The notes beneath the pieces are model-generated. The model was given only the letters and a program-made list of their open reading frames with translations, was not told the DNA's origin and ran no database searches. Shown here piece by piece: positions 53,498-59,572 of a DNA stretch of 64,000 nucleotides. Made by a program: the position numbers and the translations under genes. Source of the DNA: Winogradskyella sp. MH6 (lineage in GTDB: Bacteria; Bacteroidota; Bacteroidia; Flavobacteriales; Flavobacteriaceae); the NCBI RefSeq assembly GCF_022810765.1, contig NZ_CP094494.1:2976001-3040000 (forward strand), given 5' to 3'. Each line of letters starts with the position of its first letter. The first letter of the stretch is position 1.

Positions 53498-54310
53498 TTA
53501 TTCTTCCCAAATTATGCTTAAACAGTGTTTGTCATGCATTAAACAATGTTCTTTAAATGGCAAATTTGCTTGATTGTCATATTTAATATCAAACCAATCC
53601 ATAGCATAAACTGGTTCTGTTCTTGAAACTTTCCTTCCTAAATTAAAATATTCACCAGCAACTGTATCTTCTGATAATCTATCCTTGCCATGTTTTAGCC
53701 ATTTGAAACGAAAATCCTCAGAAGACCAAAACCATTTAATATTATTATCATAGGAATAAACAACCATTATTGGATGATTTCCTATTGCACAAAACCTTAA
53801 AGCAGTAGCAGATTTGCTTGTGCCATATTTTTTTGATAATTCATCAATAATTCTAAACTCAAACTTTTTTCTAAAACAATATTTTCTAAAACCATTCTCT
53901 GGCATTAGAAGGCATGACGCAAAATAATCTGCTTGACGCTCTGCCCTATTTCTGCTTTTAAATCCAGTATAAGAGCAATGACTTGGAGATAGCCCATTTA
54001 GTAAGGCATTTCTGTGGTCATCAATAAAATAATGTCCTAATTCGTGACCAAAAGTGAATCTTGATCTTTCAGAATACGCATGCTTAAGTCTAGTCAGATT
54101 CATAAAAATGTGAAATTCATTATTTTCACATTCAAGTAATCCATCAAATGAATCATCATAATCGCCAAAACTATATGATATAGCGTTTCTTTCAGCGATA
54201 AAAATTGGGTCTATTTGACCATTTGGAAAATAATATTCAGAAATCCCACTCGCTAATTCGTTAATTTCAATTACATCGTTTCTCGATAAAAAATCATTTC
54301 TTTCTAGCAT
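53498..54310 (-). CDS. ImmA/IrrE-family metalloprotease
   Basis: In this 270-residue protein the HExxH zinc motif is FTFGHELGHYFIDD (His89, Glu90, His93), and the downstream glutamate ligand lies in RAERQADYFASCLLMP (near residue 137). ImmA/IrrE proteases cleave a partner repressor or antitoxin, often under stress or on mobile-element induction. The gene overlaps by 17 bp an upstream small gene that would be the natural candidate for that partner, and a sigma-like gene lies upstream. No N-terminal HTH is present in the same chain. Base composition matches the accessory block. Confidence 0.87.
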   Translation of the reverse strand: MLERNDFLSRNDVIEINELASGISEYYFPNGQIDPIFIAERNAISYSFGDYDDSFDGLLECENNEFHIFMNLTRLKHAYSERSRFTFGHELGHYFIDDHRNALLNGLSPSHCSYTGFKSRNRAERQADYFASCLLMPENGFRKYCFRKKFEFRIIDELSKKYGTSKSATALRFCAIGNHPIMVVYSYDNNIKWFWSSEDFRFKWLKHGKDRLSEDTVAGEYFNLGRKVSRTEPVYAMDWFDIKYDNQANLPFKEHCLMHDKHCLSIIWEE

Positions 54311-54599
54311 CCTTTTTATCCTTTTTCATTTGCTCAATAGTCTTTTTAGTAATCTCCTTACCTTCTCTTGCCGCCATTGCAAGATTAGAAACAGCCTTAT
54401 TGCTTGGTAAGTTTAATCTGACTACTTTTTTAGAATTGTTATTGTTACAAATGATATCAGATAAATCAGGCCACTTTTTTGGCTCTTCATAACTTTCTTC
54501 AAACTTTTCTTCGAATGAATTAACTTCTTCTTCAGTTTCAGGAAAACCGTAACCATATTTCCTTAAAAGTTCACCTATTTTCTTCTCGCCTGATGCCAT
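54294..54599 (-). CDS. Small charged protein, possible protease partner
   Basis: This 101-residue acidic and lysine-rich protein contains ELLRKYGYGFPETEEE near the N-terminus and a lysine-rich end (MKKDKKDARKK). It has no recognised family. It overlaps the ImmA/IrrE gene by 17 bp and is preceded by a sigma-like gene 4 bp upstream. In ImmA/IrrE systems the neighbour is commonly the cleaved regulator; that role is inferred by position only. Confidence 0.6.
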   Translation of the reverse strand: MASGEKKIGELLRKYGYGFPETEEEVNSFEEKFEESYEEPKKWPDLSDIICNNNNSKKVVRLNLPSNKAVSNLAMAAREGKEITKKTIEQMKKDKKDARKK

Positions 54600-54603
54600 A
54601 TCT

Positions 54604-55248
54604 CTATTTATTGACTGCTTTACTTTGTATTATTTTTTTTAAATCCCTTTTAGCCCTCGAAATAGTTTGTCTAATATTTTGCCAAGTTGTTTCAAACATT
54701 CTCTCTAATAATCTAATATTTTGACTATTCATGTTTTTGTCATCTTCGTATAACAAAAAGTACATTCTTATTATATCTTGTTTCTTAGCAGAAAATTGTG
54801 CTAAACATTCATCTATTAGATTTCTTCTTTTTACTAATTCCTCATTAAGAAAATCAAATTCATCATCTAATAATGACCACTTCCATTCATTATCGTTATC
54901 ATCAATCAAATTTTCTTCATTTTCTCTAGAGTCTTCACTTTTACGTAACTCTTCAAAAAATTTAAATTTAGCAACTACTGATAAATATGATTTATACCCT
55001 CCTTTTTGGGTTTGGTGTATTGTTGGATCAAATTCCCAGTCAAGAGGATTATTCCACACATGCATAAAAACATTAGACATAACAATTAATGCAGTTTCTT
55101 CTTTGTTTAAATTAAAATGAATTTTCTTAAGTATTACATTATAAACAAATCCTTTAAATGCTTCATATAAATAGGCCATAGAAGCTTGAGCATCTTTATT
55201 GTTTTGTTCTTTTTCAGAAATAAATAATAAGTGAGTTTCTATGTCCAT
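54604..55248 (-). CDS. Sigma-70-like (ECF-type) factor
   Basis: This 214-residue protein has a sigma-region-2-like helical segment (AYLYEAFKGFVYNVILKK, then LIVMSNVFMHVWNNP). A C-terminal region-4-like segment (ERMFETTWQNIRQTISRAKR) has the typical last helix of an HTH. The central linker is long and acidic. It opens an operon with the small protein and the ImmA/IrrE protease. Just upstream (55273-55301) lies a perfect inverted repeat that may be its operator. Confidence 0.7.
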   Translation of the reverse strand: MDIETHLLFISEKEQNNKDAQASMAYLYEAFKGFVYNVILKKIHFNLNKEETALIVMSNVFMHVWNNPLDWEFDPTIHQTQKGGYKSYLSVVAKFKFFEELRKSEDSRENEENLIDDNDNEWKWSLLDDEFDFLNEELVKRRNLIDECLAQFSAKKQDIIRMYFLLYEDDKNMNSQNIRLLERMFETTWQNIRQTISRAKRDLKKIIQSKAVNK

Positions 55249-55812: not shown

Positions 55813-57063
55813 ATGGAAGAAAAATTTAGACAGAAACAAGTTCAGCTTGATGCAGATAGTAGCACAGGTAAAATTAAAATTGAGAAGCTTTGTTCTCTAA
55901 TCGAAAATCATCCTTATAAAGAGGATGTCTACAAAATGTTTGATATAGATGGTATTCGGAATGAGTATATTTCTATAGATTTCGTTGACTTAATTTACAA
56001 AAAAGTTAATCACTATATAACTAAGTATCGTCGCTATAAAATAATAGCACAAACTAAAGATATTGATGTTTATGAAGAAGTAATTTCTGGAAGTAGCGAC
56101 ACTAATATTGTTTTTAATTTTGAAGAGTATGTAGAGATTGATGAAATTAAAGTAAACTTAAAAACAATAGCCTTATATGATTCTAAGAATACATTTTTAG
56201 ATGAATATGCAATGACAAAATATGCTAACAATTTATTTAAAATTGGGCAAGCATCTCTTGCCAACTATAATGTACAGTACTTTAAAGAGATGGCAAAGAA
56301 TACTGACGGTTATAATAAAGAGAAAAGCTACCGTTTAGTTGAACATGAAAATGTAAATTATCTACGTGGTATAACTTCTACACGTTACTATGAATATGGG
56401 ATTGATTTCACTTTTGTTGTAGGTATGTTAAGCCTTCATAAAAATATGAAAGCTAATCATGGTATAGAGTATAAAATAAAAAATGTAGCAATCAGTGAAT
56501 CAAAATTAGAGATGATTGTCTCAGAAAAGCATATAAAAGATGCAGGTAAATTTGGATATGTATCAACAGCAGTTAAAATTACTACAAATGATTTAGGTAC
56601 TGGTTCTTTAAACTTTGTAAATGTTATTAATGTAATGCAAAAAGATTCAACAGGATTTTACTTGATACCAAAAAAAAATTCAATTGTTGAGAATAGTTCG
56701 TTAGTGATTAATCACAATACCAAGCCGGAAAATGTTTTTACTGCTTTAAAAGATTTAGATGGTATTCTTAACACGGCTGATAGTTTTATAGAAGAACTTA
56801 ATGCTGTTAAAACAATTAAAACTCCAGATGAACTCAGAGTTAAAATTCTAGCTAAAATACAGTCACCTCGCAGTAGCTTTAAATCTATTAAAAAGCTTTC
56901 AGATATTTTCGGTAGAAAAATTGATAACGAAGTTAGTAACTTTAAAAAGCTTTTAGAAATGTGTAACAAAGCAGAAGAACTGAATATAGAATATGATTTA
57001 AAAGATAAATTACGCTATATTATTTCAGATATTATTCTTTACGGCAAGCACAGAGATAATTAA
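55813..57063 (+). CDS. Large protein of unknown function, weakly DUF932-like
   Basis: This 416-residue, cytoplasmic, AT-rich-coded protein contains VNYLRGITSTRYYEYGIDFT near residue 185 and GYVSTAVKITTNDLGTGSLN near residue 256. These are reminiscent of phage/plasmid DUF932 proteins, which share 'YLRGxxSxRY', but the match is weak. The C-terminal third is helical and charged. It lies immediately upstream (38 bp) of the DarT-like gene and may be part of the same transcript. Confidence 0.6.
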   Translation: MEEKFRQKQVQLDADSSTGKIKIEKLCSLIENHPYKEDVYKMFDIDGIRNEYISIDFVDLIYKKVNHYITKYRRYKIIAQTKDIDVYEEVISGSSDTNIVFNFEEYVEIDEIKVNLKTIALYDSKNTFLDEYAMTKYANNLFKIGQASLANYNVQYFKEMAKNTDGYNKEKSYRLVEHENVNYLRGITSTRYYEYGIDFTFVVGMLSLHKNMKANHGIEYKIKNVAISESKLEMIVSEKHIKDAGKFGYVSTAVKITTNDLGTGSLNFVNVINVMQKDSTGFYLIPKKNSIVENSSLVINHNTKPENVFTALKDLDGILNTADSFIEELNAVKTIKTPDELRVKILAKIQSPRSSFKSIKKLSDIFGRKIDNEVSNFKKLLEMCNKAEELNIEYDLKDKLRYIISDIILYGKHRDN

Positions 57064-57101: not shown

Positions 57102-58436
57102 ATGGAAATACCAGATGAATACAAAGGCAAATACTTTTATCATTTTACTCACATTGAAAATCTAGAATCTATTTTAGAAAATGGTTTTTTAAGTACAAAT
57201 CAAAAAGAGGCTTTAAAGTTAAATCATATTAATGTGGCCTCTGAGAATATCCAGACTAGGCGTAGCTCTATGGACGTGACATGCGCACCAAATGGAAAAG
57301 TCCACGACTATGTTCCCTTTTATTTGTCCTCAACTAATCCTATGGTTTTAGCTGTTGTAAATGGAAAGAATGTAGATCAAATAGATTTAATTTTCTTTGC
57401 TATTCCAATTAAAAAATTAACTGAAGAATCAGTTGTATATACGAATGCATCAGCTAATACAATTATTCCGCCAGATTTTTTCAACAACCCAAAAGACCTA
57501 GACCAGCTGAATTGGGAAGCAATCGATTCTAGAAAATGGAGCAATAAAGATGATGATTGGAAGCATGAAAGGATGGCTGAAGTTTTAGTAAATGGTTCAG
57601 TCCCTATTGATTGGATTGAGAAAGTAATTGTATGGAACAAATATAGAAAAGATAGAGTAATCAAAACTTTTGAAAATTATGGATTAAATGCACCTGAGAT
57701 TAAATACTCATTAAATGGTAGACATTTTTATTATACAAAATTTGCAATTGGAAGAGAGAATGAAACTCTTGTTACTGGTCCTAAACATTTGAAAAGTTTA
57801 TTGATTGATGTTATTAAGAAAATTAAATCTAATAGAGAGACTAATCATGAATACTCATATGATAGTCTAAAGGATTTACTATTTGCCATCAAGGAAGATT
57901 TTTGTGTTATTCCTGAACTAAAAGGAATATATGAACTAGAAACTATTAATGATGTTCATGAAAATAATGTCAGTGATCATACATTGAAGGTTGTTAAAAA
58001 CCTCAAAAAAAATCAATACTATAAAGATTTAAATAAAAGGCGAAAAAAGATAGTCAAGTTAGCTGCATATTTGCATGACATAGGCAAAGGTCCCAAGAAG
58101 AAATGGAGAGATGGTAAACAACCAGCATATCCCGATCATCCTGTTGACTCATTATTAATGTTACAACGAATATTATCTGAGGATATAAAGGATATTAAAA
58201 ATTCAGAGATTAAAATAATATGTAAATTAGTTGGCTATCATGATTTGTTAGGTGATATTGTAGGTAAAGGAAGAAGCAAAAGTCAATTATTTAGTATTAT
58301 AGAAAATGAAAAAGAGCTAATGATGCTTATTGCTCTTTCAATGGCAGATGTTCAAGCAATTAATACATTTTGGTATAATGACTTAAAACATGCTATACCA
58401 GATATAATTAAAGAGGTTAAAGAAAATTTAGCGTGA
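57102..58436 (+). CDS. darT: DarT-type DNA ADP-ribosyltransferase with C-terminal HD domain
   Basis: Residues about 8-215 match DarT toxins, which attach ADP-ribose from NAD to thymidine in single-stranded DNA. YHFTHIENLESILENGFLS is the N-terminal substrate/NAD loop, NIQTRRSSMDV carries the conserved arginines (53-54), VHDYVPFYLSSTNPM is a family block, and ERMAEVLV holds the catalytic glutamate (Glu160). Residues about 285-420 are an HD phosphohydrolase-like domain with His293, LHDIGKG (His325-Asp326), PDHP (His346), GYHD (380-381) and the late aspartate in SMADVQA. The metal ligands look intact. Fusion of an HD domain to DarT is unusual. It overlaps the antitoxin gene by 4 bp (GTGA). Confidence 0.85.
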   Translation: MEIPDEYKGKYFYHFTHIENLESILENGFLSTNQKEALKLNHINVASENIQTRRSSMDVTCAPNGKVHDYVPFYLSSTNPMVLAVVNGKNVDQIDLIFFAIPIKKLTEESVVYTNASANTIIPPDFFNNPKDLDQLNWEAIDSRKWSNKDDDWKHERMAEVLVNGSVPIDWIEKVIVWNKYRKDRVIKTFENYGLNAPEIKYSLNGRHFYYTKFAIGRENETLVTGPKHLKSLLIDVIKKIKSNRETNHEYSYDSLKDLLFAIKEDFCVIPELKGIYELETINDVHENNVSDHTLKVVKNLKKNQYYKDLNKRRKKIVKLAAYLHDIGKGPKKKWRDGKQPAYPDHPVDSLLMLQRILSEDIKDIKNSEIKIICKLVGYHDLLGDIVGKGRSKSQLFSIIENEKELMMLIALSMADVQAINTFWYNDLKHAIPDIIKEVKENLA

Positions 58437-59572
58437 TAAAATTTGTAAAAGGAAATTTTTTTGATTTTGATGCAGACATAATGATAAACACCGTTAACTG
58501 CGTTGGTGTAATGGGTGCTGGTGCTGCTTTACAATTCAAAACTAAATTTCCTAAAATGTTTAAAGATTATGCTTTAGCTTGTAGTAAAGGTGAAGTAAAA
58601 ATAGGGAAAGGACATATTTGGAAAGAAGATAATATGTTCAAGTCTTTGACTATTATTAATTTTCCAACAAAAGACCATTGGAAGAATCCATCTGAATATA
58701 TATTTATAGAAAAGGGTTTAACCTGGTTAAAAGAAATTCTTCAGTCATATAATAATTTGACTGTTACTGTTCCTGCATTAGGTTGTGGACATGGCGGATT
58801 AGATTGGTCCATTGTTAAAGAATTGATTAAAAAAGAACTGAGTGATTCTAATAATACAATTTTAGTTTTTGAACCAAAAAGTTCAACTAAAATTAATTTA
58901 TCAAAAGAAATTAATGACCTTTTAATTAAAAATAATATTAATAGAATTTCGCCAAATGATAATATCTATCCTAAAAAAATTAAAGGCCGATCGTCAAAAG
59001 AAATATACTTTAAAGGAAATACAGAATTATTATTAAAGAAAAATATAGCAATTGTAGTAACATCGAAACCAGAAGAAAGAGAGAAAAAGGCACTAGAACT
59101 TTTTATTGATGCTTTGCCCAACAATGACTTTGTCTTTTTGATGGGCTTTAGCAATAGTTATGAAATAGATATAGTGAAAAAAATACTTGATAGAGGATTT
59201 AAAACTATTCTTGTGCTACCCTTTGGAATATTAAATCTGAAAGTACGTAAAGATTTAAAAGAAAGTTGGAGTTTTAAAAATATATTAGTTGCCTCAATTA
59301 CAAATCCTAACGATAGTTGGAAGAGCTATGAAAGTATCAATGCTCTCAAATTTCGAATAAAAATATCTGACATTATTTTAATTAACAGTTTGAATTTTGA
59401 TAAACTGAAGATGTTTAATAATGAGCTTGAATCAAATGATAGTAAAAAATTCTTTTTGAATTATTGGAATAATAACATAGATTTTTATAAGAATATTTCT
59501 GCAGAAAAAATCGGAATCAATCCTAAAACCAATAAACCTAACACGACTAAAGTTCTTGAAGCCTTAAAATAA
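58433..59572 (+). CDS. darG: DarG-type macro-domain antitoxin with C-terminal DprA/SLOG-like domain
   Basis: Residues 1-150 form a macro domain of the DarG/TARG1 type: INTVNCVGVMGAGAALQFK (18-36) is the ADP-ribose loop, INFPTKDHW contains the catalytic lysine (Lys80), and PALGCGHGGLDW (114-125) is the second loop. This domain removes ADP-ribose from DNA. Residues about 203-345 read as a DprA/SLOG-type Rossmann domain: IAIVVTSKPEEREKKALELF, then FVFLMGFSNSYEIDIVKKIL and KTILVLPFGILN, then FRIKISDIILINS. The last 30 residues (NPKTNKPN) are a basic tail. The start is a GTG overlapping the toxin's stop by 4 bp. Confidence 0.82.
   Translation: MIKFVKGNFFDFDADIMINTVNCVGVMGAGAALQFKTKFPKMFKDYALACSKGEVKIGKGHIWKEDNMFKSLTIINFPTKDHWKNPSEYIFIEKGLTWLKEILQSYNNLTVTVPALGCGHGGLDWSIVKELIKKELSDSNNTILVFEPKSSTKINLSKEINDLLIKNNINRISPNDNIYPKKIKGRSSKEIYFKGNTELLLKKNIAIVVTSKPEEREKKALELFIDALPNNDFVFLMGFSNSYEIDIVKKILDRGFKTILVLPFGILNLKVRKDLKESWSFKNILVASITNPNDSWKSYESINALKFRIKISDIILINSLNFDKLKMFNNELESNDSKKFFLNYWNNNIDFYKNISAEKIGINPKTNKPNTTKVLEALK

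Follow-up and report, generated by a model that had tools for sequence, protein, structure and literature searches.

A DarTG-type gene pair of Winogradskyella with a changed second domain on both partners

Introduction

Two classes of DarTG are described, DarTG1 and DarTG2, which are defined by the enzyme of the antitoxin (PMC11543638). In other DarG proteins, a single-stranded DNA (ssDNA)-mimic domain blocks DarT (PMC11481870), while in other systems DprA homologues serve as antitoxins (PMC9122126). Concerning genomic context, the DarTG2 of EPEC is nested in a Type I restriction–modification locus (PMC12255303), and SGI1-related islands contain a macro protein together with two DUF4433 proteins (PMC9035990).

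We analysed a stretch of 64,000 nucleotides from Winogradskyella sp. MH6, hereafter the window, which contains a toxin with DarT and HD domains (DarT-HD) and an antitoxin with macro and DprA/SLOG domains (macro-SLOG). The pair shares with DarTG2 (DarT2 and a macro-domain DarG) the DarT fold and a macro domain with Lys80; it differs in that the toxin adds an HD domain, the ssDNA-mimic C-terminus of DarG gives way to a DprA/SLOG domain in the antitoxin, and both partners fall in separate clades. DarTG1 (DarT1 and NADAR) is also a two-gene operon with a DarT-type toxin, but the partner in the window is macro-SLOG and not NADAR. The DprA-like antitoxin domain is common to the pair and to ShosTA and PsyrTA, which have DprA-type antitoxins; however, the window toxin is an ADP-ribosyltransferase (no ShosT or PsyrT model is among its seven PADLOC matches) and the window antitoxin also contains a macro domain. 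A sequence-only reading of the window had held that this four-domain form is not a standard described type. In agreement with this, we found no named DarTG class with HD on DarT or SLOG on DarG in the accessible text of the literature searched, a search with preprints outside its scope and subscription papers barely covered.

The gene pair and its domains

The features of the pair are as follows.
57102..58436, + strand: darT-HD toxin gene, 444 aa
57138..57701, + strand: DarT ADP-ribosyltransferase domain, residues 13-200 (R53, R54, E160)
57840..58430, + strand: HD phosphohydrolase domain, residues 247-443 (H293, H325, D326, H346, H380/D381, D416)
58433..58436, + strand: 4 bases shared by the toxin stop and the antitoxin start
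58433..59572, + strand: macro-SLOG antitoxin gene (DarG-type), 379 aa, GTG start
58433..58897, + strand: DarG-type macro domain, residues 1-155 (K80)
58910..59569, + strand: DprA/SLOG-type Rossmann domain with C-terminal tail, residues 160-379

The overlap of the two genes makes translational coupling likely. In Pfam, the toxin matches DarT (E 4e-46) and HD (E 1.7e-6), and the antitoxin matches Macro (E 3.8e-13) and DNA_processg_A/DprA (E 1.3e-7), all above the curated cut-offs. The four domains named in the sequence-only reading are thereby confirmed, also by confident structure models and solved structures; the predicted HD and Rossmann folds are both present in the C-termini, and two confident models together with the solved structures rule out that either call arose by chance. 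The residues which that reading had pointed out, the arginine pair 53-54 and Glu160 of the toxin and the ADP-ribose loop and Lys80 of the macro domain, are equally borne out. An artefact or frameshift at the pair is ruled out, as both reading frames are open and full-length relatives are numerous. Near full-length families for both proteins exist in PHROGs (phrog_32804 and phrog_30914), neither with a function there.

Distribution of the pair

One genome for each of 84,980 species was scanned, which yielded 78 loci. The search relied on two exact peptide patterns, of which one lies in the HD domain, and retained the best 80 of 118, so that it gives no prevalence. Reading frames from these loci, from the loci of further searches and from the window were scanned with separate profiles for the first and the second half of each alignment. 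Two duplicates of the window locus were dropped, which left 108 loci (numbered with the prefix L): 50 with DarT-HD (window included), 52 with DarT without HD and six with HD-only reading frames.

Macro-SLOG adjoins DarT-HD in 42 of the 50 loci but DarT without HD in only one of the 52 (L050), which is the count of pairs that the sequence-only reading had called for. Among the other DarT-HD loci, the contig of L004 ends inside the macro gene, five (L012, L013, L014, L017 and L018) additionally contain DarT and DarG of the ordinary kind, without SLOG, and two (L026 and L044) lack a macro partner within the stretch examined. Fifty of the loci without HD have a macro gene without SLOG; L060 has no macro gene, and its DarT runs to the contig end. 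In the five loci of the L012 type, DarT-HD lies directly upstream of a complete ordinary DarTG, which gives two toxins and one ordinary antitoxin; the arrangement in SGI1-related islands is possibly the same (PMC9035990). In an Epulopiscium bin (L026:7275-9311), DarT-HD stands behind an N-terminal Sel1/TPR repeat region.

The 49 DarT-HD loci outside the window belong to nine named phyla, of which one is archaeal, and the 41 of them with the complete pair to seven; since 20 of the 49 titles are those of metagenome-assembled genomes, phyla with one locus are provisional. The pair is rarely seen, yet widely spread. In 395 genomes from the phylum of the window, the whole DarT-HD model is covered by a single one of the matches listed, namely the window's own. 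Six distinct IMG/VR contigs contain the pair, and of 37 plasmid records that match DarT, three cover at least 80% of DarT-HD. None of the 425 matching phage records covers at least 80% of macro-SLOG, and the phage matches fall in its residues 1-170 (among the 25 matches listed). Three viral contigs of 160-168 kb (L129, L131 and L132) encode 155-aa proteins that consist of a macro domain only and share 45-50% identity with the window DarG macro domain; a phage counter to DNA ADP-ribosylation is a possible role for these proteins.

Both proteins are called DarT and DarG by PADLOC, and one locus with macro-SLOG (L050) lacks HD, as would be expected if the pair were an ordinary DarTG2 whose extra domains are lineage baggage irrelevant to function. 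We regard this as very improbable: the HD motif is kept across nine named phyla and the pair occurs in seven, and both proteins score under the NCBIfam equivalog cut-offs, the toxin by 0.1 bit (149.9 against 150 for DarT) and the antitoxin clearly (229.1 against 250 for DarG).

The toxin: DarT and HD domains

Pfam, alignment and structure comparison all place a DarT ADP-ribosyltransferase fold with the catalytic Arg and Glu in the toxin, and the HD metal-ligand set (H...HD...H...D) is complete. In the alignment of the 50 DarT-HD rows, E160, H325, D326, K329, H346, R391 and D416 are present in all, H286 and H293 in 49 each and R54 in 48 (the other two being gaps). Position 380 is H in 34 rows and D in 16.

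Concerning the origin of the HD domain, structure and profile comparison, the latter with reading frames from the phylum of the window, indicate the tRNA nucleotidyltransferases as its nearest kin. Across genomes of that phylum, reading frames matched by the HD half of the DarT-HD model are often about 480 aa long; compared with six of this type, the HD half gave an hhalign probability of 98.7% (E 1.5e-16, 158 columns, 27% identity). The best NCBIfam model of three HD-matching reading frames (L104, L107 and L109) is the CCA tRNA nucleotidyltransferase TIGR02692, under its cut-off. A single HD half searched by sequence alone against PDB found no convincing match (best E 0.095). By these comparisons the domain is related to the HD of CCA-adding tRNA nucleotidyltransferases, and it was probably captured from an enzyme of this type. 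This kinship makes nucleic-acid ends no less likely as the substrate than a signal nucleotide.

The same kinship would also suit an HD domain that is no warhead, and which either trims or dephosphorylates damaged ends or merely positions DarT on its substrate as a nucleic-acid-binding scaffold. The second, ordinary DarTG beside DarT-HD in five loci points in that direction as well; metal ligands kept in 50 loci, however, are needless for a mere scaffold, and a protective or scaffolding role appears to be the less probable option, though one to be taken seriously.

The antitoxin: macro and DprA/SLOG domains

The DarG models cover only the N-terminal part of the antitoxin (model positions 1-153 of 329 in PADLOC and 1-155 of 338 in NCBIfam), and the rest matches ShosA (E 6.8e-7) and PsyrA (E 1.2e-4) in PADLOC. 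The canonical C-terminal ssDNA-mimic domain of DarG is absent, and the DprA-like domain stands in its place. This SLOG domain is nearest to DprA and to the ShosA antitoxin; no likeness of the canonical DarG C-terminus to it is among the matches listed. An Acidobacteria bin (L027:2447-4327) has a macro-SLOG protein with an extra C-terminal DUF6988 domain.

DprA proteins bind DNA through two loops, the G-S/T-R phosphate loop and the SGxAxGID loop. In the window antitoxin, the Arg of the former is Ser211; at the adjacent Lys212, 66 of the 77 macro-SLOG rows have K or R, and E217 is kept in 76. The SGxAxGID loop is altered in macro-SLOG, and E244 is kept in 59 of the 77 rows. The loss of the Arg and the changed second loop make ssDNA binding by this domain doubtful. 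The sequence-only reading had suggested that the pair may sense or degrade a nucleotide signal. Worked out for the two domains, SLOG would sense a small molecule derived from NAD or ADP-ribose, in the manner of Thoeris ThsA, and HD would destroy it; beside the likeness of the two domains to DprA-type antitoxins and to tRNA enzymes, respectively, this appears unlikely.

Trees, association and co-evolution

A quick maximum-likelihood tree was made for 103 DarT domains (rows under 140 aa left out; SH-aLRT support only, no bootstrap) and another for 99 macro domains (rows under 120 aa left out). Long branches are flagged in both, and neither the rooting nor gain versus loss is fixed. In the DarT tree, all 48 HD rows and the HD-less L050 form one branch (SH-aLRT 99), and HD needs two changes; in the macro tree, all 43 SLOG rows and the truncated L004 form one branch (SH-aLRT 99). 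Since each fusion makes up one branch in its tree, the two mark the same split of DarTG. For the same reason the Fisher test of HD against SLOG (p 6e-21; 98 loci with a macro partner, excluding L004, L026, L044 and L060) overstates the number of independent events.

Rates were compared across 39 loci (three with a truncated DarT dropped). SLOG evolves fastest of the four domains and macro slowest, with mean tree distances of 4.0 and 1.3. Across the two proteins, the domains with the highest partial correlation are DarT and SLOG (0.34, bootstrap interval 0.12-0.53), followed by DarT and macro (0.25, -0.02 to 0.51), HD and macro (0.18) and HD and SLOG (0.12, -0.11 to 0.35); the test is weak and the intervals overlap. 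The first of these values weakly suggests contact of SLOG with the DarT domain.

DarT-HD in 42 of the 43 macro-SLOG loci, and macro-SLOG in 42 of the 50 DarT-HD loci, is what two toxins with two antidotes would look like, where the macro domain counters DarT and the DprA-like domain is a specific antidote to the HD enzyme. Such a one-to-one relation is weakened by L050, with SLOG and no HD, by the five L012-type loci, where the HD ligands are kept without SLOG (L013 has Asn at position 381), and by the HD–SLOG correlation, whose interval includes zero. Each fusion is also apparently a single clade, which reduces the association to few events. We therefore consider separate antidotes quite improbable.

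Hma operons and other genes beside the pair

Within 6-7 kb of the 50 DarT-HD loci, the only gene families common to a majority are those of the pair; the next ones occur in at most five loci. The commonest neighbour is Hma (helicase, methylase, ATPase), and five loci contain the pair in Hma-type operons.
L030:4568-17183
L019:992-13061
L025:4548-16665
L035:3073-11898
L015:2-6074

Upstream of the pair, L019, L025, L030 and L035 have an HmaA helicase gene (PADLOC E 1e-191 or better), while L015 has only the end of an HmaA-like gene. Macro-SLOG is fused to a methylase in four of the five: in L015, L019 and L035 the antitoxin chain runs on into HmaB (E about 1e-129 to 1e-128), and in L030 the fusion partner is a DUF1156 methylase. 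L015 and L035 stop inside the fused gene. HmaB is a separate gene in L025 (E 6e-114), a complete genome. HmaC follows the pair in L019, L025 and L030. No Hma gene was matched by PADLOC among the six window proteins scanned. The DarTG2 of EPEC likewise lies within a restriction-type operon that contains a small regulator; it differs from the pair in Hma in being canonical and in its host system (PMC12255303).

Neighbourhood of the pair in the window

Upstream of the pair, the window contains the following genes.
53498..54310, - strand: CapP-like M78 metallopeptidase (PADLOC capP E 2.7e-63)
54294..54599, - strand: small CapH-like protein (PADLOC capH E 1.6e-7)
54604..55248, - strand: sigma-70-like protein of the divergent cassette (TIGR02937 E 6.3e-8, under cut-off)
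55813..57063, + strand: 416-aa protein, separated from darT-HD by 38 bases; it precedes the pair in Arenibacter (L002) too

The GC content is 27-31% at about 52.5 to 59.5 kb, compared with 37-44% from 59.5 kb on and 30-41% leftward, and this lower value is in keeping with an acquired island. Pfam, PADLOC, NCBIfam and PHROGs give no match to the 416-aa protein at the chosen thresholds. Its relatives number 217; in a listing of 120 of them, those with a name come from Flavobacteriia or from unassigned Bacteroidota. The gene is present in six of 395 genomes of the class, window included, three of these being weak matches. It is divergent from the CapP cassette in all four loci looked at (the window, L002, L116 and L117), an order which recurs with the DarTG pair in L002 and without DarTG in L116 and L117.

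The sigma-70-like, small CapH-like and CapP-type genes stand in a row at 53498-55248 (- strand), and similar cassettes are found in L002, L007, L116 and L117; in L007 the cassette is directly upstream of DarT-HD. The CapP proteins of the window and L002 are only about 30% identical. Because the small CapH-like protein has no helix-turn-helix match in Pfam, the cassette may be a sigma/anti-sigma/protease version of CapH and CapP, and the sigma-70-like protein may regulate the island. Single-stranded DNA activates CapP, a protease that cleaves the repressor CapH (PMC13373217); by analogy, expression of the island triggered by ssDNA is plausible.

Proposed mechanism and significance

We judge the chances about evenly balanced that the pair is an anti-phage DarTG in which a DprA-like domain neutralises DarT from the place of the ssDNA-mimic domain and HD is a putative active phosphohydrolase. 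The parts of this reading differ in strength. By homology to DarT2, DarT would very probably ADP-ribosylate single-stranded DNA, probably on thymidine, and block replication, and the macro domain would, with equally high probability on grounds of homology, take the mark off DNA. Judged by its conserved ligands, the HD domain is likely to be an active metal phosphohydrolase; that it acts on nucleic-acid ends or nucleotides and thereby adds toxicity is somewhat less certain than an even chance. We infer, with a modest leaning in favour, that the DprA-like domain replaces the ssDNA-mimic domain of DarG, binds DarT and keeps it inactive. Its release of DarT upon ssDNA or another infection ligand, as proposed for DprA-type antitoxins, is speculative and on the unlikely side; a lock of this kind is reasonable given the antitoxin role of DprA homologues elsewhere, while the altered DNA loops urge caution. 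Against the overall reading stand Ser211 and the changed SGxAxGID loop, the five loci in which DarT-HD accompanies an ordinary DarTG, so that SLOG is not always needed, the two DarT-HD loci without a macro partner in the stretch examined (L026 and L044), and the weak partial correlations (0.25 for macro and DarT) with their overlapping intervals.

A bolder proposal, to which we give rather little credence, is a third DarTG class. Its toxin would have two warheads, an ADP-ribosyltransferase and a CCA-adding-enzyme phosphohydrolase, directed at ssDNA bases and at RNA/tRNA 3' ends or modified DNA ends; its macro-DprA antitoxin would be both mark eraser and infection-gated lock, and the module would have merged with the restriction-like Hma as a built-in guard.

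For the family, the pair represents a separate DarTG clade in which the second domain is changed on both partners. Because a DprA-like fold occupies the place of the DarG C-terminus, it provides a natural test of what that C-terminus requires. Macro-SLOG unites two antitoxin themes in one protein, ADP-ribose removal and DprA-type antitoxins, and the toxin has a conserved, probably active HD enzyme that is related to a housekeeping tRNA enzyme. The pair also gives an example of DarTG merged into Hma.
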